DNA from: an uncultured Ruminococcus sp.
GTDB taxonomy: Bacteria; Bacillota; Clostridia; Oscillospirales; Acutalibacteraceae
Direction of reading: 5' to 3'
DNA length: 10,102 bases
Assembly (NCBI GenBank): GCA_902802975.1
Contig: CADCOF010000180.1
Coordinates: forward strand, 1-10,102
This document shows, piece after piece, positions 1-10,023 of the stretch (position 1 is the stretch's first letter; every line of letters begins with the position of its first letter). A program made the position numbers and the translations under genes. The notes beneath the pieces are model-generated. The model saw only the letters and a program-made list of their open reading frames with translations, was not told where the DNA came from and ran no database searches.

Positions 1-129
1 AGAGAAATGAAATTCGTTCGATAGAGAACTTTTGTATTCTGAATAGTTACAATTATTGTATCGAAATTCCAACCGCTCAGGTAGAGCTGCATACTGTTTG
101 TTTGATTCCGCATAAATCTTATTTTTCAT
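1..129 (-). CDS. Probable 5' part of an unrecognised gene, cut by the window edge
   Basis: An open frame begins at the ATG complementary to 127-129 and runs 43 codons without a stop to the window edge. It overlaps the end of the transporter gene (stop 119-121) by 11 nt, an arrangement typical of translationally coupled genes. The predicted start is MKNKIYAESNKQYAALPERL, followed by a charged, tyrosine- and asparagine-rich stretch, so it looks soluble. I do not recognise the family. There is no clear Shine-Dalgarno sequence, which fits coupling but weakens the call. A second frame starting at an ATG at 111-113 is also open to the edge, so the frame choice rests mainly on the stop/start overlap and the more protein-like composition. 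Confidence 0.4.
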   Translation of the reverse strand, partial: MKNKIYAESNKQYAALPERLEFRYNNCNYSEYKSSLSNEFHFS

Positions 130-703
130 TGCCATTGTGATATTTCGGTAAATAGTTCTTGAGTGCTTTATGGAGAGGAGTTATCAATAGCAGCGAGCCT
201 ACTATTGCAACTATTTGATTTATCCCTGACGTAATCATTTTTGGTGCGCACGCTGCTGCCGCCGCGCTGAAGGCACTTCCGGTTATCATTAGTTTTACTA
301 TGCTTTCGGTTATGTATAGCAGCCAGTATACGGCACCTGCGGAAATTGCTCCCACTGCATTGCGCTTCATCGATAATTCTTTGCTGTTTTTCGGGTTTGA
401 TATTAAACCGCACACGAGTCCCATTATAAAAAACTTGGCAAATGTCAGAGGTGCGCTTGTGATATAAACCGGGTCAAGCAGATCATAAAGTCCGTTGCCT
501 ATTCCCGCTGAAAGTCCGCCGAAAATACCGCCAAACAGCATGCCCGAGAGCAGAACAAGTATATTGCTTACTTTTAGCATCGTTTGTCCTGCCGGAGTTG
601 GTATTGGAATTTTCAAAAAATATGTTGTCACGAATATCATTGCAGACATCAGAGCAGCAAAAACATAATACAAGAGCCTTTTCTGTTTTAGATTTGGTTT
701 CAT
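119..703 (-). CDS. ECF transporter S component (substrate-binding membrane protein)
   Basis: A 194-residue, very hydrophobic protein with about five to six membrane segments (roughly residues 9-30, 45-80, 83-102, 115-137 and 155-180). It has a basic N-terminus and a polar, basic tail. Length, Gly/Ala-rich helices and the motif run PAGQTMLKVSNI followed by GGIFGGLSAGIGNGLYDLL fit the S components of energy-coupling-factor importers, which bind a vitamin, metal or other small molecule and dock on shared EcfA/EcfA'/EcfT subunits. Those subunits are not in this window, as is usual for group II ECF systems. The substrate cannot be read from the sequence. The start is set by AGGAG (complement of 714-718), 10 nt before the ATG, and there is a consensus promoter just upstream. 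A partly overlapping gene follows at its 3' end. Confidence 0.75.
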   Translation of the reverse strand: MKPNLKQKRLLYYVFAALMSAMIFVTTYFLKIPIPTPAGQTMLKVSNILVLLSGMLFGGIFGGLSAGIGNGLYDLLDPVYITSAPLTFAKFFIMGLVCGLISNPKNSKELSMKRNAVGAISAGAVYWLLYITESIVKLMITGSAFSAAAAACAPKMITSGINQIVAIVGSLLLITPLHKALKNYLPKYHNGNEK

Positions 704-1053: not shown

Positions 1054-1082
1054 TTGACAACATGAAAATAACGCTGTATAAT
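1054..1082 (+). promoter_or_regulatory. Perfect consensus sigma-A promoter for the GCS2-family ligase gene
   Basis: TTGACA at 1054-1059 and TATAAT at 1077-1082 match the sigma-A consensus at every position and have the optimal 17-nt spacer. The start point should fall near 1089, giving a 5' leader of about 55 nt before the ATG at 1145. It is the strongest-looking promoter in the window. Confidence 0.85.
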
Positions 1083-1132
1083 AAGCATACTAAACAAATA
1101 GGAATTATAAGAAATTATTCGATTTATTTGTC

Positions 1133-1144: not shown

Positions 1145-2530
1145 ATGGATAAAGAAACAATTTACCGTGCAATTTATGATAAATATATAGCACCTACAAA
1201 AATTGCCAGAAAAAATTATATAGGCGTCGAGATAGAAATGCCCGTTGTTGCTCTTGATGGTGGAAGTGTAGATGAGAATACAGTTCACGAGATTGCCGAT
1301 CTTTTTTCTGAAAAATTTGGTTTTATTCCCGTTGGTTATGATGCGCAAGGCAGCGTCACATCTTTTAGAAATAACAAAAACGGCGATATTCTTTCGTTTG
1401 ACTGTTCATACTCAAACCTTGAACTGTCATTTGGCAGAGCTGAAACTCTTTTCGAAATACATTATCGTTTTAAAAAGTATTATGCTTTTCTCAACAACCG
1501 ATTTTATTCTAATGGCTGCATACTTACAGGAATGGGAATAAATCCGAATGCCGCACAGGTTCATGGAAAGCCTATACAAAACGAGCGTTACAGAATGCTT
1601 TATCATTATCTTCACTCATACAAAAAACATATTTCGGAGTTTGGCATCAGTTTTCATGATCGCCCGGACTTTGGCACTTTTACAAGTGCATCGCAGGTGC
1701 AGCTTGATGTTTCTTATGATCGCCTTATTGATGTTATAAATGTTACCGGGCTGCTTGAGCCGTATAAGGCTATGCTTTTCGCGAATTCATATCTGCCCGA
1801 TCATCCCAAATATCTCTGTGTGAGAAATATGCTGTGGGAGCATAGTATGCAGGGCTATAATCCGCATAACGTTGGTATGTTTTCGCTTCCGATTCACAGT
1901 GCAAATGAGCTTGTGGAATATATAGGTACGCAGTCGATATACTGTACCATGAGAGATAAAAAATACATAGATTTTAAACCTGTCAAAGTATGCGATTATT
2001 TTGACAGAGAAGAGATATACGGACAGTACTTCAATGGTGAAAGTTACAGTGATATTACATTTAAACCGGAAAAAAGCGATATTGACTATCTGAGAACGTT
2101 CAAGTTTGAAGATCTCACTTTCAGGGGAACTATTGAATACCGCAGCTCCTGCTGCCAGCCGATAAGCGATGTGATGACGGTTGCAGCGTTCCATACAGGA
2201 ATAAATGAGCGCATATCCGAAATTAAAGAACTTCTTGAAAACGACCGTGTGATATATTCCCACGGCTACAGTCCAACAGAGCTTGTGAAAATGTTTTCAA
2301 AAAGAAAATATCCCGATTTTGCAGAAAAATCGGAGCTTTCAAAGCAGCTTCAGCGCATATTGGAGCTTGCTGAGGATGGACTTAGATACAGGGGTAATGG
2401 TGAAGAAGTATTTCTTGTGCCTCTTTTTGAGCGCGCCGAACACTTGACTAATCCTGCAAGAGAAATGGTAACAGGCATCGAAAACGGCGTATCAATGAGA
2501 GAATTCATTGAGAAATATTCGGTGCTGTAA
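1145..2530 (+). CDS. Glutamate-cysteine ligase family 2 (GCS2, plant/EgtA-like) protein
   Basis: A 461-residue soluble protein resembling the GCS2 branch of ATP-dependent carboxylate-amine ligases, whose members (plant GCL, actinobacterial EgtA, YbdK) join the gamma-carboxyl of glutamate to an amine, classically cysteine. Visible signatures are GVEIEMP (27-33; acidic metal/ATP-binding strand), LELSFG (92-97), SASQVQLD (181-188; the place of TxVQVNLD in the family) and RGTIEYRSSC (327-336), followed by a helix resembling the family's C-terminal region. The length fits the family. It is unrelated in sequence to the GshA-type ligase encoded 1 kb downstream. It has its own consensus promoter and stands as a single gene, converging on and overlapping the serine hydrolase gene by 26 bp. 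The ligase fold is well supported. The exact substrates are not: it could make gamma-glutamylcysteine or another gamma-glutamyl amide. The start at 1145 rather than 1139 is set by ribosome-binding-site spacing. Confidence 0.8.
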   Translation: MDKETIYRAIYDKYIAPTKIARKNYIGVEIEMPVVALDGGSVDENTVHEIADLFSEKFGFIPVGYDAQGSVTSFRNNKNGDILSFDCSYSNLELSFGRAETLFEIHYRFKKYYAFLNNRFYSNGCILTGMGINPNAAQVHGKPIQNERYRMLYHYLHSYKKHISEFGISFHDRPDFGTFTSASQVQLDVSYDRLIDVINVTGLLEPYKAMLFANSYLPDHPKYLCVRNMLWEHSMQGYNPHNVGMFSLPIHSANELVEYIGTQSIYCTMRDKKYIDFKPVKVCDYFDREEIYGQYFNGESYSDITFKPEKSDIDYLRTFKFEDLTFRGTIEYRSSCCQPISDVMTVAAFHTGINERISEIKELLENDRVIYSHGYSPTELVKMFSKRKYPDFAEKSELSKQLQRILELAEDGLRYRGNGEEVFLVPLFERAEHLTNPAREMVTGIENGVSMREFIEKYSVL

Positions 2531-3443: not shown

Positions 3444-4580
3444 ATGGCTAAAAGATCAATATTTAAGGGGAATTTCGGTCTGGAGCGCGAAACTCTCCGT
3501 GTAGATAAAAACGGTGCGCTTTCCCAAACGCCGCATCCATTTGGTTTAGAAAAAAATATCACGCGTGATTTCTGCGAAAATCAAGTCGAATTGATAACGC
3601 CTGTTTGCGCTTCTGTTGATGAAGCTCTTAATGAATTAAAAAAACTTGACGAACGCGCAAGCCAAACGATCTCAAAGATCGGTGAACGGTTTTGGCTGTA
3701 CAGCAATCCGCCGCATATTGAGACAGAGGACGATATCCCCATAGCTGTTTTTACAGGTGCGCAAAGTGCTAAAAGTGACTATCGCCTTGCTCTCCAAATG
3801 AGATACGGAAAACGTCTTATGCTGTTGTCGGGTATACACTTCAATTTTTCATTTTCAAGCGAGTTTCTTGACGAACTATCAAAAGGCAAATCAGACAGAA
3901 AATTTAAGGACTCGTTGTATCTTCGACTTTACAAACAGCTTATGCGTCATAGCTTTTTGCTCGTACTTGTTACTGCATCGAGCGCATATTATGACAGGTC
4001 GTTTGATAAAGACGGTGAGTACGGTACTGTATTGAGCAAGTATTCATCTTTCAGAAACAGTGAGCGTGGGTACTTTAATACGTTCGTTCCAATACTCGAT
4101 CATACCGATATCAAAAGTTTCTGCAAAAGCGTTGACTACTATATACAAAAGGGCATGCTTTTTTCAGCAAGCGAACTGTATTTACCTATCAGAATTAAAC
4201 CAAGAGGCGAAAACAGTCTCGCAGCACTTAAGGACAACGGTGTAGATCATATAGAGCTGAGAATGTTTGATATTAACCCGAAGGCACCGCTGGGTATAGA
4301 CGGGCGTGACTTAAATTTTGCTCACCTTTTAATAATTTATCTGACGACTTTGCCTGATTTCGAATTTACCGAGGAACTGCAGATGCAGGCAATTATGGAT
4401 CACCAGAATGCGGCACTGCTTGAAACAGAACCGGAAATCATAAATCGCGCCGAGCGTATTCTTTCAGATATGTTAAAGTATTTTTCGGGCGAAAAAGAAG
4501 CACTGGATGTAATCAATTACGAAATATCTAAACTCAGTCAAAATACAGAGGAGAGATTTGAGAATTACTACCGGAGGTGA
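3444..4580 (+). CDS. gshA: Glutamate-cysteine ligase (GshA type)
   Basis: Catalyses ATP-dependent formation of gamma-glutamylcysteine from glutamate and cysteine in the cytoplasm, the first step of glutathione synthesis. The 378-residue protein shows the hallmarks of the E. coli GshA/GshF branch: FGLERETLRV (11-20), ITRDFCENQVELITP (39-53), SGIHFNFS (129-136), SSFRNSERGY (201-210) and HIELRMFDINP (269-279). It is shorter than E. coli GshA (about 518 residues) and has no ATP-grasp domain, so it is not a bifunctional GshF; the shortening falls in the C-terminal half. The start at 3444 is preferred over an upstream in-frame ATG (3417) because AAGGAGG (3433-3439) sits 4 nt before it and the family's conserved region begins directly after. 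It opens the seven-gene run ending in sufU; the next gene begins 5 nt after its stop. Identity is confident. That gamma-glutamylcysteine is the end product in this organism is only a possibility. Confidence 0.9.
   Translation: MAKRSIFKGNFGLERETLRVDKNGALSQTPHPFGLEKNITRDFCENQVELITPVCASVDEALNELKKLDERASQTISKIGERFWLYSNPPHIETEDDIPIAVFTGAQSAKSDYRLALQMRYGKRLMLLSGIHFNFSFSSEFLDELSKGKSDRKFKDSLYLRLYKQLMRHSFLLVLVTASSAYYDRSFDKDGEYGTVLSKYSSFRNSERGYFNTFVPILDHTDIKSFCKSVDYYIQKGMLFSASELYLPIRIKPRGENSLAALKDNGVDHIELRMFDINPKAPLGIDGRDLNFAHLLIIYLTTLPDFEFTEELQMQAIMDHQNAALLETEPEIINRAERILSDMLKYFSGEKEALDVINYEISKLSQNTEERFENYYRR
4573..4577 (+). promoter_or_regulatory. Ribosome binding site that fixes the amidotransferase start at Met-Cys
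   Basis: GGAGG lies 8 nt before the ATG at 4586. Other in-frame starts (GTG 4577, ATG 4580) overlap or abut the site and would place three extra residues before Met-Cys, burying the nucleophilic cysteine. The site lies inside the last codons of gshA. Confidence 0.8.
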
Positions 4581-4585
4581 TGAAA

Positions 4586-5338
4586 ATGTGCGAGTTGTTC
4601 GGTTTTTCCGGAAAAAACAACACCAACTTGACCAATAGTTTGAAATCATTTTTTTCGCACAGCAATATGCACCCTCATGGTTGGGGTATGATGTATTCGG
4701 GCGGTATTGTAAGAGAGCCTGTCAAGGCATCCGAAAGTAAGCTTCTGCCTCTTATACTGAAATCAATGGAGCCACAAAAGAATATGCTCGCGCATATTCG
4801 CTATGCGACTGTTGGCAGCGTGAAGGAGGAAAATTGCCACCCTTTTGAAGGCAGTGATATTTCAGGGCGTGAGTGGACGATGATACACAACGGCACGATT
4901 TACTCCGTAAAAGGTACCTACAAGTATTATAAAACGCAGTCTGGAGATACAGATTCCGAGCGGCTGTTTTTGTCATTTCTCGACAAGATGAATGACTGTT
5001 TAAGCAGTGGCAGCCTTAGCGAAAGAGCGCGTTTTAATACGGTTGCTGCATTTATAGCGGACAATGCGCCTCGCAATAAGCTCAATTTGATGCTGTTTGA
5101 CGGTGAACTTTTGTATGTACACAAAAATCTTAAAAACACACTAAGTTTCAGATACTTAGATGACGGCATTCTTATTTCTACACAACCGCTTGATAATAAT
5201 ACCTTGTGGATGCCATTCCCGATGGCTCAGGTAATAGCCTTTAAAAACGGGCGCGAGGTATATAGGGGCGATCGTCATAAGGGTGTGTTTGTTCCAACAC
5301 TGGAGTATATTACTGCTCTCGATGCAATGAATATTTGA
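4586..5338 (+). CDS. Class II glutamine amidotransferase (YafJ/EgtC/Dug3-like)
   Basis: A 250-residue Ntn-fold enzyme. Removal of Met1 would expose Cys2 (MCELFGFSG) as N-terminal nucleophile. Further family motifs are HPHGWGM (29-35), AHIRYAT (69-75; arginine contacting the glutamine/gamma-glutamyl carboxylate), NCHPF (83-87), HNG (101-103) and GDTDSE (120-125). It is a stand-alone amidotransferase domain without a synthetase domain, so it should hydrolyse a gamma-glutamyl amide rather than feed ammonia within one chain. Characterised stand-alone relatives are EgtC, which removes gamma-glutamate in ergothioneine synthesis, and yeast Dug3, which takes part in glutathione breakdown. Its place between gshA and sufC suggests it acts on gamma-glutamylcysteine or a derivative; that is inference. 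No EgtB or EgtD homologue is visible here. Glutaminase activity for another pathway remains possible. Confidence 0.88.
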   Translation: MCELFGFSGKNNTNLTNSLKSFFSHSNMHPHGWGMMYSGGIVREPVKASESKLLPLILKSMEPQKNMLAHIRYATVGSVKEENCHPFEGSDISGREWTMIHNGTIYSVKGTYKYYKTQSGDTDSERLFLSFLDKMNDCLSSGSLSERARFNTVAAFIADNAPRNKLNLMLFDGELLYVHKNLKNTLSFRYLDDGILISTQPLDNNTLWMPFPMAQVIAFKNGREVYRGDRHKGVFVPTLEYITALDAMNI

Positions 5339-5358
5339 ATAAACGAAAGGAAATCAAA

Positions 5359-6099
5359 ATGTGCGATATACTGAAAATAGAAAATCTCTGTGTCTGTGCG
5401 GAGAATAAAGAATTGCTTCATGATATAAATATCAATATTGCACGCGGTGAAACACATGTTCTGATGGGTCATAATGGCGCGGGAAAATCAACACTCGGCT
5501 GTACTATAATGGGCAGCCCCGAATATAAAATAACGGGCGGTAGGATATTTTTTAACGGTGAAGATATTACGAACGAATCTGCCGATAAGCGTGCCCGAAG
5601 AGGAATATTTCTCTCTTTCCAAAACCCTGTTGAGATACCCGGAGTCACGCTTTCGGAGTTTTTGCGAAATGCACTTGAACAGATTTCAGGCAAGCGGCAA
5701 AAGCTTTGGGAATTTAAGAAGCAGCTTAATACCGCTATGGAAGTTCTCGACATGGATAAATCGTATGCCGACAGAGAATTAAATGTCGGTTTTTCAGGCG
5801 GCGAGAAAAAGAAGGCAGAAATACTCCAACTTCTTATGCTTAAACCTAAACTCGCTATATTGGACGAAACAGACTCCGGACTTGATGTTGATGCAGTGAA
5901 GACAGTATCAAAAGGCATAGAAGAATATCGTAAGGAAACCGGAGGTACATTGCTTGTTATAACGCACAACACAAAAATTCTGGAATCACTCACCGTTGAT
6001 AAAACTCATATACTGTCAAACGGCAGAAATGCAAAAAATGGTGGTGGAGAACTTGCTTTTGATGTTCTTGAAAATGGTTTCGGCGAGGTGTTTGTATGA
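5359..6099 (+). CDS. sufC: Fe-S cluster assembly ATPase SufC
   Basis: The soluble ABC-type ATPase of the SufBCD scaffold, which uses ATP to reshape SufB/SufD during cluster assembly. All nucleotide-binding elements are present in the 246 residues: Walker A GHNGAGKST (37-45), Q-loop Gln88 in SFQNPVEIPG (a stretch characteristic of SufC), signature FSGGEKKK (145-152), Walker B LAILDE (165-170), D-loop SGLD (173-176) and H-loop His203. There are no membrane segments. The start at 5359 is set by GAAAGG (5345-5350), 8 nt before the ATG; an upstream TTG at 5335 overlaps the previous stop and is not needed. It follows the amidotransferase by 20 nt, the widest gap in the operon, and overlaps sufB by 4 nt (ATGA). 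The protein starts Met-Cys and has three cysteines in its first 13 residues, which I would not expect to matter for the ATPase. Confidence 0.95.
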   Translation: MCDILKIENLCVCAENKELLHDININIARGETHVLMGHNGAGKSTLGCTIMGSPEYKITGGRIFFNGEDITNESADKRARRGIFLSFQNPVEIPGVTLSEFLRNALEQISGKRQKLWEFKKQLNTAMEVLDMDKSYADRELNVGFSGGEKKKAEILQLLMLKPKLAILDETDSGLDVDAVKTVSKGIEEYRKETGGTLLVITHNTKILESLTVDKTHILSNGRNAKNGGGELAFDVLENGFGEVFV

Positions 6100-7505
6100 G
6101 TGAAAAAACGCAGATAGCAGATATCGACCGTTCACTTTACGACTTTCGTTTTGAGGAAGACGAGCAAGATAGATTGTCGAGTGGAATAACTCCGGAGATA
6201 ATATCGGAAATATCACATGAGAAAAACGACCCGGATTGGATGAGAAAATTTCGTCAGCACTGTCTGAAAGTATACAACAAAATGGAAATGGTAAAATGGG
6301 GTGCGCCAATCGACGGTCTTGATATTAATAATATAGTAACATATATTCGTCCAAAGTCAAGAATGAATACAGATTGGGAGAATGTTCCCGAGAGCGTGAA
6401 GGAGACGTTCGAGCGGCTCGGTATTCCGAAAGCGGAGCGCGAAAGTCTTGCAGGAGTGGGTGCTCAGTATGACAGTGAACTTGTGTATCATAACGTGCGC
6501 TCGGAGGTGGCAAGGTCGGGTGTTGTCTACACCGATTTAGAAAGTGCCATGCATGACGAGAGGTATGCAGAGATAATAAAAAGTCACTTTATGAAGTTGG
6601 TGCCGCCTACAGATCACAAATTTGCCGCACTTCACGGTGCAGTGTGGTCAGGCGGATCGTTTGTATATGTTCCCAAAAATGTTAATCTCGAAATACCGCT
6701 TCAGTCGTATTTCAGACTTAACGCAAAGGGCGCAGGACAGTTCGAGCATACGCTTATTATTCTTGAAGAAAACAGTTCGCTGCATTTTATCGAGGGCTGT
6801 TCTGCACCGAAATATTATGAGGCGGGACTTCATGCAGGTTGTGTGGAGTTATTCGTTGGTAAGTGTGCGAAACTGCGCTATTCGACTATCGAAAATTGGT
6901 CAAAGAATATGTACAATCTCAACACAAAGCGCGCTCTAGTTGAAGATGGCGGCAAGATAGAGTGGGTGTCCGGAAGTTTTGGTTCGCATGTTTCATATCT
7001 CTATCCGATGAGTATATTAAACGGAGCGGGCGCGTCTGCCGAATTTACAGGGATAACGTTTGCAGGCGAAGGGCAAAATCTTGATACCGGTGCAAAGATT
7101 GTCCACAATGCTCCCAATACTTCATCGTATATAAACACGAAATCTATCAGCAAATCCGGTGGTATAAGCACATTCAGAAGTTCCGTTATAATAAACCAAA
7201 ATGCTGTTGACAGCAAGTCATCAGTAAATTGCGAATCACTTATGCTCGACAAAATATCGCGCTCCGACACAATACCGGCGATAGATATAAAAACAGACAA
7301 ATGTGATGTAGGACATGAGGCGAAAATAGGGCGCATAAGCGATGAGGCAATATTTTATCTTACATCGCGCGGGCTTTCAGAAGAAGAAGCGAAAGCAATG
7401 ATCGTCCGTGGTTTTGCCGATAACGTGTCAAAAGAACTGCCGCTTGAATACGCTGTTGAAATGAATAATCTCATTTCTCTTGAAATAAACTCAAACGTCG
7501 GTTAA
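6096..7505 (+). CDS. sufB: Fe-S cluster assembly scaffold SufB
   Basis: A 469-residue scaffold protein on which the nascent cluster is built in complex with SufC and SufD. The sequence is SufB-like throughout: HKFAALHGAVWSGGSFVYVP (174-193), FIEGCSAPKY (231-240), ENWSKNMYNLNTKRA (266-280), NCESLML (378-384), SRSDTIPAIDI (388-398) and the C-terminal ELPLEYAVEMNNLI (447-460). Length is normal for Firmicute SufB. Cysteines at 235, 249, 257, 379 and 403 include candidates for sulfur acceptance or cluster ligation; as in Bacillus-type SufB, the region before DTIP lacks the extra cysteine of the E. coli protein. Its start codon overlaps the sufC stop by 4 nt, so translation is probably coupled, and a strong AAGGAGG for sufD begins within its own stop codon. 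Confidence 0.96.
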   Translation: MSEKTQIADIDRSLYDFRFEEDEQDRLSSGITPEIISEISHEKNDPDWMRKFRQHCLKVYNKMEMVKWGAPIDGLDINNIVTYIRPKSRMNTDWENVPESVKETFERLGIPKAERESLAGVGAQYDSELVYHNVRSEVARSGVVYTDLESAMHDERYAEIIKSHFMKLVPPTDHKFAALHGAVWSGGSFVYVPKNVNLEIPLQSYFRLNAKGAGQFEHTLIILEENSSLHFIEGCSAPKYYEAGLHAGCVELFVGKCAKLRYSTIENWSKNMYNLNTKRALVEDGGKIEWVSGSFGSHVSYLYPMSILNGAGASAEFTGITFAGEGQNLDTGAKIVHNAPNTSSYINTKSISKSGGISTFRSSVIINQNAVDSKSSVNCESLMLDKISRSDTIPAIDIKTDKCDVGHEAKIGRISDEAIFYLTSRGLSEEEAKAMIVRGFADNVSKELPLEYAVEMNNLISLEINSNVG

Positions 7506-7519
7506 GGAGGATTTTTCTT

Positions 7520-8395
7520 ATGAAAACAACTAAGCTTAATATTCTTCCGATACCTACGTTTTCTCACCTAGGCGTAAATTTTACGGATCGCAGGATTGAA
7601 AATGCAATTTATGACAACATAACGCTGCAAAGCGGCAGCACCGATATAACAAAAAATGCACAATGCACACTAACCGCCGAAAACGGAGAACACAAAAGCG
7701 TATTGCAGTATGTCCGTGCAGACAATGCAGTATTGATCGACACAAGCGTAAAGGTAGAAAATGGTGCCGTTGCTGTTCTTGTTCAGATTTTTGATACGAC
7801 CGAGCCTATTGTGTCAAAGCTTAATGTGGATATTGCGGAAAATGCACATTTTGAGCTTGTGCAGCTTTATATTGGCGGAAGAGACACTGTAAGTGAGATC
7901 AAAGCGGAACTTTCGGGGCGTCACTCCGGGTTTGTATCTGATATTGCGTATAAGCTTGATAATAATGATAAGCTCGACTTGAACCTTATTGCTGATCACT
8001 TTGGAAAAAACAGCATGTCTAAAATAACGGTAGGCGGTGTTATGAGTGAAAATGCTGATAAGATATTTAAAGGAACAATTAATTTTAAATGCAGCGCATC
8101 CGGTGCAAAGGGCACGGAAAATGAAGATGTTTTGCTGATCGGTGAGAAAGTTCGCAGCAGGACTGTTCCCGTTATACTCTGTTCGGAGGAAGATGTTGAG
8201 GGCAGCCACGGTGCAACAGCGGGACGAATAGACAACGCAAAAATATTCTATATGCGCTCACGCGGCTTTTCGGATGAACGCATAATGCAGATACTGGCAC
8301 AGGCTAAAATATCGCGTGTCATTGAAAAAATAAACGATCCGCAAACAAAACACCGCGTATATGATTCTTTGGGGTGGTGCGATATTTATGAATGA
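7520..8395 (+). CDS. sufD: Fe-S cluster assembly protein SufD (short form)
   Basis: The partner of SufB in the SufBCD complex. At 291 residues it is much shorter than typical SufD (about 420-435), because the N-terminal helical region is missing; what remains is the beta-helix core and C-terminal helices that contact SufC. Recognisable parts are the strand-rich core (about 55-200), GSHGATAGRID (228-238, with His230 at the place of the conserved SufD histidine) and KIFYMRSRGFSDERIMQIL (241-259), which parallels the C-terminal part of SufB. The start follows AAGGAGG (7504-7510) by 9 nt. The frame is intact and joins sufB and sufS tightly, so this is a short natural form rather than a broken gene. 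It overlaps sufS by 8 nt. Confidence 0.88.
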   Translation: MKTTKLNILPIPTFSHLGVNFTDRRIENAIYDNITLQSGSTDITKNAQCTLTAENGEHKSVLQYVRADNAVLIDTSVKVENGAVAVLVQIFDTTEPIVSKLNVDIAENAHFELVQLYIGGRDTVSEIKAELSGRHSGFVSDIAYKLDNNDKLDLNLIADHFGKNSMSKITVGGVMSENADKIFKGTINFKCSASGAKGTENEDVLLIGEKVRSRTVPVILCSEEDVEGSHGATAGRIDNAKIFYMRSRGFSDERIMQILAQAKISRVIEKINDPQTKHRVYDSLGWCDIYE

Positions 8396-9602
8396 CAGAA
8401 AAAAGGACTTTCCGATATTCAATAAGTATCCAGGTACAGTTTACCTTGATAATGCCGCTACTTCTCAAAAGCCGCAATGCGTTATTGAAGCCGTGACAAA
8501 ATATTATCGGGAAGAAAACGCAAACCCATTGCGTGGACTTTATGATTTGAGTGCAAAAGCAACGGAAAGCTACGAAACAGCGCGAAAATCAGTCCGGAAT
8601 TTTATCGGCTCAAAGAGTTCAAGCGAGATTGTATTCACACGAAACGCAACTGAAAGTCTTAATCTTATCGCATACAGCTTTGGTCTTGAAAATCTCTGCG
8701 CCGGTTCGGAAATACTTATTGCAATATCCGAACATCACTCAAATCTTTTGCCGTGGCAATATATTTCACAAAAAACCGGTGCAAAACTAAAATATCTTGA
8801 ATGCGATAAAAACGGAGAATACACATGCGATTCGCTCGAAAACGCGCTTACTCCCAACACAAAAATATTTGCTATAGCGCAGATCTCTAACGTGTTCGGG
8901 CGAATAAACCCGATAAAAGAATTTGCGGAAATATGCCATAAAAACGGTACGTTAATCGTATGTGATGGCGCACAGAGTATTCCTCATATCCCGATTGACG
9001 TAAACGATCTAGGAGTAGATTTTCTTGCGTTTTCGGGACATAAGCTCTATGCTCCTATGGGAATAGGTGTACTTTATGGAAGACGCGAACTGCTTCAAAA
9101 AATGCCGCCGTTTCTTTTTGGCGGCGAAATGATTGATTATGTAACACGTGAAAACGCGACATTTGCAGAGCTTCCGCATAAATTTGAGGCAGGCACGGTA
9201 AATGTGGGCGGTGCTGTAGGACTTCACGCAGCAATAGACTATATAATTTCTATTGGCTTTGATGAGATAATTAAGCATGAGAAGTATTTAACGGAGCTTG
9301 CCATTTCGGAAATGCAGCGCATACCCGAGGTAAATATTATCGGATCAAACAACGCCCATGATCATAATGGGATAATTACATTTACTATAGACGGAGTTCA
9401 TCCGCACGATATTGCTGCTGTTTTCGACGCAGACAATATTGCTGTTCGTGCAGGTCACCATTGCACTCAGCCACTGCATCAGTATCTTAAAGTGCAGTCT
9501 ACAGCGCGAATGAGTATAGGTCTGTACAATGACGAGCATGATATAGAGTTGTTCATTGAAACACTTAAAACAGTAAGAAGGAGAATGGGATATGAGCGAT
9601 AA
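8388..9602 (+). CDS. sufS: Cysteine desulfurase SufS
   Basis: A PLP-dependent enzyme that converts cysteine to alanine and carries the sulfur as a persulfide for transfer to SufU. The 404-residue protein is a group II (SufS/CsdA) desulfurase: YLDNAATSQKP (19-29), SEHHSN (114-119; histidine stacking on PLP), VCDGAQS (191-197; aspartate to the pyridine nitrogen), FSGHKLYAPMGIGVLYG (215-231) with PLP lysine Lys219, the FEAGTVNVGG segment (266-275), and RAGHHCTQP (354-362) with catalytic Cys359 on the short loop typical of group II enzymes. The start at 8388 lies just inside the 3' end of sufD (8-nt overlap) after a G-rich ribosome binding site (8371-8377); an upstream ATG at 8361 would add nine residues that do not fit the family. 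It overlaps sufU by 11 nt. All catalytic residues are present. Confidence 0.96.
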   Translation: MNDRKKDFPIFNKYPGTVYLDNAATSQKPQCVIEAVTKYYREENANPLRGLYDLSAKATESYETARKSVRNFIGSKSSSEIVFTRNATESLNLIAYSFGLENLCAGSEILIAISEHHSNLLPWQYISQKTGAKLKYLECDKNGEYTCDSLENALTPNTKIFAIAQISNVFGRINPIKEFAEICHKNGTLIVCDGAQSIPHIPIDVNDLGVDFLAFSGHKLYAPMGIGVLYGRRELLQKMPPFLFGGEMIDYVTRENATFAELPHKFEAGTVNVGGAVGLHAAIDYIISIGFDEIIKHEKYLTELAISEMQRIPEVNIIGSNNAHDHNGIITFTIDGVHPHDIAAVFDADNIAVRAGHHCTQPLHQYLKVQSTARMSIGLYNDEHDIELFIETLKTVRRRMGYER

Positions 9603-10023
9603 TATTTACAACGAGGTTCTTCTCGATCACAATCTGCACCCAATCCATCGCTGCGAACTTAAATGTGCAACGTGTTCGGTAAACGGGATAAATCCCTCGT
9701 GCGGAGATCAGCTAACACTGCACCTTGTAATGGAAAACGGCATTATAAAGGACGGCTCATTCACCGGTGTCGGCTGCGCTGTGTCGCAGGCCTCTACAGA
9801 CATAATGCTCGATTTGATAATAGGCAAGACTTCGGAACAGGCAAAGCATATGCATGATCTTTTCTCGAAAATGATAAGCGGGGAGATAACCAACGAAGAA
9901 CTTGAAGAACTGGAAGAAGCGGGTGCTTTGCAGAACATATCAAAAATGCCCGCGAGGGTAAAATGCGCAAAGCTTGGCTGGAATACGCTCGAAATGGCAT
10001 TGAATGAAAACAAGGCTGAATAA
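9592..10023 (+). CDS. sufU: Sulfur acceptor / IscU-like protein SufU
   Basis: A 143-residue zinc-dependent sulfurtransferase that accepts the persulfide sulfur of SufS and hands it to the SufBCD scaffold. The conserved ligands are Cys37 and Asp39 in NPSCGD (35-40), Cys62 in GVGCAVSQASTDIM (59-72) and Cys124 in RVKCAKLGW (122-130). The SufU-specific insertion between the second and third cysteines is present, including an acidic helix (102-110, EELEELEEA), which separates it from IscU. AGAAGGAGAA (9576-9585) gives a good ribosome binding site within the sufS 3' end. Oddly, three extra cysteines (21, 25, 28) form a C-x3-C-x2-C group just before the first ligand. It ends the operon within the window; no convincing terminator follows in the remaining 79 bases. 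Confidence 0.94.
   Translation: MSDNIYNEVLLDHNLHPIHRCELKCATCSVNGINPSCGDQLTLHLVMENGIIKDGSFTGVGCAVSQASTDIMLDLIIGKTSEQAKHMHDLFSKMISGEITNEELEELEEAGALQNISKMPARVKCAKLGWNTLEMALNENKAE

Follow-up and report, generated by a model that had tools for sequence, protein, structure and literature searches.

Predicted gamma-glutamyl-thiol genes joined to a sufCBDSU operon in an uncultured Ruminococcus and its relatives

The stretch analyzed in this work (the window; 10,102 nt) is the whole of contig CADCOF010000180.1, labelled C180, in the draft genome of an uncultured Ruminococcus sp. (1.98 Mb in 333 contigs, 84% complete). Its plus strand carries a head-to-tail run in which gshA (3444..4580), a stand-alone glutamate-cysteine ligase gene with no synthetase half, and a gene for a class II (N-terminal nucleophile, Ntn) amidotransferase-fold hydrolase, hereafter GAT (4586..5338), precede the genes of a SUF system for iron-sulfur (Fe-S) assembly: sufC (5359..6099), sufB (6096..7505), sufD (7520..8395), the cysteine desulfurase gene sufS (8388..9602) and sufU (9592..10023), which encodes a sulfur-transfer protein. 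The contig ends 79 nt past sufU. Only 5 nt separate the gshA stop (4580) from the Met-Cys start of GAT (4586), and 20 nt the GAT stop (5338) from the ATG of sufC (5359). An earlier sequence-only reading of the same DNA had reported this packed run, and its coordinates, strand and families are confirmed here; however, it had called the arrangement head-on. It had also seen no terminator or promoter inside the run. A scan of the window indeed found no plus-strand terminator-like site from the start of gshA to that of sufC, but the same interval holds two weak plus-strand promoter-like matches (9/12) at 4558 and 4834, from a scan that gave 38 sites in the window versus 27.5 +/- 4.8 in shuffles.

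Upstream of the run lies a predicted second ligase gene that the earlier reading had overlooked, orf1 (1145..2530, plus strand, 461 aa). It is preceded by a TTGACA-17-TATAAT promoter (1054..1082, plus strand) agreeing with the consensus at 12/12 positions and by an operator-like site CATACTAAACAAATAGG (1086..1102, plus strand), which the palindrome scan placed one mismatch from the pattern CCTAYTNNNNNARTAGG discussed below. Between orf1 and gshA, a gene of the beta-lactamase fold (PF00144; 2505..3374) runs antisense on the minus strand; it occupies the same place in several relatives, is absent from others, and is a frequent bystander left outside the module.

Four of the suf products exceed their curated NCBIfam cut-offs, namely SufC (TIGR01978, 299 bits), SufB (TIGR01980, 656 bits), SufS (TIGR01979, 552 bits) and SufU (TIGR01994, 159 bits). 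The short SufD misses its own (TIGR01981, 141.7 bits versus 222), yet SufD is still its best family and PF01458 is matched at 154.6 bits; we read it as a divergent SufD. Gene content and the order C-B-D-S-U are those of the known Bacillota sufCBDSU operons, and an Rrf2 regulator gene is nearby in some relatives. Unlike those operons, the one in the window is closely preceded by gshA and a predicted Ntn gamma-glutamyl hydrolase gene.

A GAT alignment used to scan species genomes yielded 281 confirmed stretches, of which the best 80 loci were kept, from entries titled Ruminococcus, Oscillospiraceae, Clostridia and similar, many of them rumen-derived. Among these best 80 of 281, gshA was present at 76 loci, orf1 at 42 and suf at 10. 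When the loci of the window's genus were added, 93 distinct GAT loci included gshA in 88 cases, orf1 nearby in 53 and suf in 15 (91, 56 and 15 of 97 loci with duplicates retained). The order gshA-GAT-suf with GAT directly before sufC, whose conservation the sequence-only reading had left to a genome search, was found at 11 loci with the window counted, and a rearranged set of gshA, GAT and orf1 (the triad) adjoins suf in two more genomes. One of these loci, L016, belongs to Ruminococcus sp. YE71. In 9 of the 11, GAT and sufC are 13-22 nt apart; the gap widens to 114 nt in L011 and to 240 nt in L129. The complete sufCBDSU is visible in 9 of the 11, the other two (L071 and L078) stopping at contig ends inside suf. 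In one further genome (L050), GAT follows sufU and the gshA-profile match is located on another contig. Contamination or a one-off arrangement was rejected, since the junction recurs in other genomes. In the GAT phylogeny, a single clade of 17 (Shimodaira-Hasegawa-like approximate likelihood ratio test support 84) contains every direct-order linked locus, and the linked loci of a second form lie in a distant clade. At least five changes of linkage, whether gains or losses, are needed on this tree.

This second form was encountered within the window's own genus, where 15 of 22 genomes have GAT: the window's type (at least 73% identity) in six and another type (41-44%) in nine. The second-form order is mostly gshA-GAT-orf1, with one copy (G160:C330) arranged as GAT-orf1-gshA. 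In G151 and G152 the second-form triad immediately precedes suf in the same orientation, and in G161 it is tail to tail with suf. Triad and suf occupy separate short contigs in G148; likewise, in G163 the A-type triad does not share a contig with suf. The SufB tree has two groups (100/100 support) that track the triad type: triad and suf forms matched in seven of the eight genus genomes having both (A with A in G000, G162 and G163; B with B in G148, G151, G152 and G161), and G157 is mixed. G159 has suf and no triad match. A SufB match was absent from 13 of the 22 genus genomes, some of which are listed as 97-100% complete.

The gshA product scores as a type-1 ligase (PF04262, 208 bits versus a cut-off of 27) and stays under the NCBIfam equivalog cut-offs for GshA and GshAB (154.4 versus 393.3, 168.4 versus 656 and 255.6 versus 425). 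Its closest solved structures among PDB sequences are those of the GshAB ligase half (3ln6, E 3e-40; 3ln7). Aligned with E. coli GshA (1v4g), it has the positions of what we take to be the metal, glutamate and cysteine sites. The start of GAT is best set at 4586, which places Cys at position 2 as the Ntn nucleophile. The protein (PF13230, 111 bits) is EgtC/Dug3-like: its predicted model (mean predicted local distance difference test score 84) finds EgtC 4zfk as best fold match (E 8e-14), and the Ntn fold, N-terminal Cys and glutamate-binding residues are all present. It thus shares the single-domain class II Ntn fold and Cys2 with EgtC and with Dug3 of the yeast glutathione-degrading complex. 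Its identity over the aligned fold is 18%, it remains under the EgtC equivalog cut-off (TIGR03442, 56.7 versus 218.65 bits), and no hercynine pathway genes occur among the window genes. Residues C2, R72, T75, N102, G103 and D123, presumably catalytic or glutamate-binding, are conserved in every ungapped GAT sequence of both forms, as are the ligase-site positions in every ungapped relative sequence. The sole exceptions are four truncated or gapped sequences, among window-form and second-form rows numbering 81 and 10 for GAT, 73 and 10 for gshA, and 40 and 9 for orf1, with shorter pieces excluded.

The orf1 product shares the fold of plant and proteobacterial GCS2 ligases (PF04107) over 411 residues at 18% identity. 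Unlike those ligases, it sits in a cluster with a type-1 GshA. No match to PDB sequences was found for it by phmmer, and no sequence-profile relation to gshA by hhalign (probability 0.3); the kinship of the two is at fold level only. It is predicted to be a second, plant-type ligase that is often part of the gshA-GAT set. The idea that GAT supplies ammonia to the ligase was set aside, because gshA retains the residues of its glutamate site and a pairing of this kind would presumably just remake glutamine.

Of 55 genomes tested, 52 gave no match to the GshB family (PF02955), the 84%-complete genome of the window among them. In all 55 the best match of the GshAB profile is restricted to the ligase half and ends by position 420 of 756; further matches of 24-63 bits at positions 475-595 are read as other ATP-grasp enzymes. 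Known glutathione synthesis relies on GshA and GshB or on their fusion GshF (GshAB), and the window gshA, although closest to the GshAB ligase half, lacks both the synthetase half and, in most of these genomes, a partner. Since the ligase and hydrolase sites are intact and a synthetase match is so rarely found, gamma-glutamylcysteine could be an end product, and a cycle that makes and releases it is plausible. Tandem ATP-grasp matches above the PF02955 cut-off (best 47-51 bits) were seen in the other three genomes, which bear the pair (G446:C5, G448:C20 and G444:C79).

A TTGACA-TATAAT-like promoter with palindromic elements precedes orf1 in most relatives viewed, and the palindrome CCTAYTNNNNNARTAGG, which often overlaps the -35 box, marks pair-operon promoters as well as unlinked suf promoters. 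An automatic 26-base matrix built from 32 orf1 promoters mixed two elements and was replaced by the mismatch-counted palindrome, a pattern fixed post hoc, after viewing pair and suf promoters, and searched with up to one mismatch. Counted in this way, it gave three matches in control stretches that total 800 kb and were taken from ten of the genomes. Of 70 loci with full flanks, 36 have it in the 3.2 kb upstream of gshA (0.012 expected per locus, about one in total), and it lies within 300 nt of the first pair-operon gene in 21 of 82 loci versus about 0.09 expected (window clade 7/16, basal loci 2/6, second form 2/9, the rest 10/51). The single match in the window is the one at the orf1 promoter. 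In genomes having some triad gene, 11 of the 14 suf promoters that do not follow GAT carry the pattern. In several R. flavefaciens-type loci the operator stands before an ACT-domain gene or a MoeB-like E1 gene; an ACT-domain gene is often located upstream of orf1 or gshA in such genomes. In L016 and L019, which have no orf1 at the locus, an operator-promoter beyond the antisense beta-lactamase-fold gene is aimed at gshA, which suggests transcription through that gene.

An Rrf2 gene directly follows sufU in L008, L010, L011 and L016, follows GAT in L050, and lies between orf1 and sufC in L127. A C-x5-C-x5-C motif is present in the Rrf2 protein of L127 and absent from those at suf-linked loci with the window's form; the Rrf2 proteins of L127 (7631-8050), L133 and L134, which lie next to the second suf form, have IscR-like cysteine spacing. 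In relatives of the window, pair-operon and suf promoters have the same putative operator, as would befit a CymR/IscR-type regulon, and this shared element at the pair operon and at unlinked suf argues for common control. An Rrf2 repressor is probably the controller of both gene sets. The motifs of CymR and IscR are described as alike (PMC3828012). In the C. perfringens cluster Rrf2-iscS-iscU-trmU, likewise combining a Rrf2/CymR-type regulator with desulfurase and scaffold genes, expression rises 3-6 fold under cysteine limitation; this cluster differs in having IscS/IscU rather than SUF and, as described there, no gamma-glutamyl genes (PMC2940859).

Where suf is lacking, the pair often has other sulfur genes near it: MoeB-like E1, rhodanese, TcdA-like, NifS-like, TtcA-like, MnmA, MetK or MetY, the last four assigned by eye. 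One or more of these genes, with Rrf2 and suf counted among them, occurred in 29 of 41 loci of at least 16 kb versus 2 of 40 control stretches, a comparison that serves as description and not as a test because the list came from the same related loci and the controls from ten genomes. Combinations vary; for instance, a NifS-like desulfurase, a TcdA-like E1 and a TtcA-like gene occur in various combinations in L053, L058, L062, L063, L064, L068, L073 and L075, and MoeB-like E1 and rhodanese genes lie beside the pair in the R. flavefaciens-type loci L017, L018, L021, L030, L031 and L037. At the far end of the window from suf, the minus strand encodes an energy-coupling factor transporter S component of folate/riboflavin type (119..703). 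No known RNA switch ahead of the operon reached the Rfam gathering score, either in the window or in seven relatives.

We tentatively favor, at somewhat less than an even chance, a reading in which gshA and GAT, with or without orf1, form a gamma-glutamyl-thiol module that belongs to the Fe-S assembly regulon and has been fused to sufCBDSU in two lineages. It is based on the gene order and its recurrence, the intact active sites, the few synthetase matches and the common promoter palindrome. In the mechanism that we infer, a fall in cysteine or Fe-S status would cause an Rrf2-family repressor of CymR or IscR type to leave the palindromic operators that it would bind on the -35 box or close to it. 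GshA would cap cysteine as gamma-glutamylcysteine, a safer storage form, from which the Ntn hydrolase would strip the glutamate and return cysteine. The cysteine delivered in this way would then be consumed by SufS or, where a genome has no Suf, by a different desulfurase. Common control is the simplest explanation and the one that best accounts for the fusion of pair and suf in two forms.

Several observations weigh against this reading. In 50 genomes drawn from the 80 GAT loci (chosen by us, mostly with longer contigs), a SufB match at E 1e-60 or better was absent from 34. SufB lies beside GAT in nine of the 16 genomes that have it and on a different contig in the other seven. Of 250 genomes sampled from the family, 15 had GAT, 18 had SufB and three had both, two of them with the genes on separate contigs, so that phylogenetic co-occurrence in the family is weak. 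The nearest relative of the window by GAT (L004) has no suf in 3.3 kb downstream and no SufB match genome-wide. A strict dependence of the pair on Suf was therefore rejected; the gshA-GAT-suf order is not a general rule, and the pair is better regarded as a unit of its own, since many of its genomes lack suf or have it elsewhere. The cysteine cycle for Fe-S assembly by Suf that the sequence-only reading had proposed is consistent with the order, spacing and intact residues, but is too narrow as stated, because the pair does not need Suf. As for the promoters, the operator is seen in just about half of the pair loci and 9 of 12 suf promoters from genomes in which no triad gene was found lack it (3 of 12 have it), and a pattern fixed after both kinds of promoter had been viewed is not a blind test. 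In the window, no CCTAYTNNNNNARTAGG match lies ahead of gshA itself even with two mismatches, and the antisense gene stands between the orf1 promoter and gshA. Moreover, orf1 is absent from 14 of the 55 genomes (present in 41), no Rrf2 match was found behind sufU in three of the seven linked loci with room for one (L129, L013 and L019), and making and then cleaving the same bond would waste ATP unless regulated.

The strongest alternative, which we consider somewhat unlikely, is co-regulation only: gamma-glutamylcysteine would be a final thiol for redox or metal buffering, GAT would act on other gamma-glutamyl compounds, and Suf would receive nothing. The 34 genomes without a SufB match, the 52 of 55 without a glutathione synthetase match and the operator common to both gene sets all agree with it. 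However, it does not explain why the hydrolase nearly always adjoins the ligase (gshA in 88 of 93 GAT loci), nor the desulfurase, sulfur-carrier and tRNA-thiolation genes near many loci without Suf, although these genes were picked post hoc. A neutral operon fusion, inherited and transferred along with the suf block and making the proximity functionally meaningless, is unlikely. It would fit the single clade of direct-order linked loci and the patchy occurrence in the family, but the divergent second triad, with another gene order, is likewise linked to suf, tight spacing is preserved in 9 of 11 loci, and the same promoter palindrome is found where pair and suf lie apart. Very unlikely is an ergothioneine-like pathway, in which the ligase product would be coupled to an acceptor by an unknown enzyme, GAT would remove the glutamate and a class V pyridoxal phosphate enzyme would cut the C-S bond: EgtC is the nearest fold to GAT, a GCS2-type ligase (which we take to be the family of EgtA) is present and SufS gives a remote EgtE match (81 bits), but GAT is far under the EgtC cut-off, SufS is a full SufS (EgtE 80.8 versus 400), no sulfoxide synthase or methyltransferase was found in a scan of ten genes of the window (no search of the whole genome was made), and the sulfur step of mycobacterial ergothioneine synthesis needs oxygen.

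No report of the gshA-GAT-suf arrangement was found in the open-access literature. The joining of a predicted thiol module to a Suf operon is real and may have functional meaning. A dedicated route of sulfur delivery, in which Ruminococcus-type anaerobes would carry cysteine or its persulfide in gamma-glutamylated form, made by one or two ligases and freed by an EgtC-like hydrolase beside the desulfurase under one Rrf2 operator common to this route and Fe-S assembly, is distinctly unlikely. Several Ruminococcus 'glutathione synthase' names may belong to ligases without a synthetase partner. Little is known about how anaerobes without a recognizable glutathione synthetase keep cysteine available yet harmless, or about which small thiol supports their Fe-S assembly; a conserved ligase-hydrolase pair that shares the suf promoter site and in places is fused to suf would be a specific, testable candidate.

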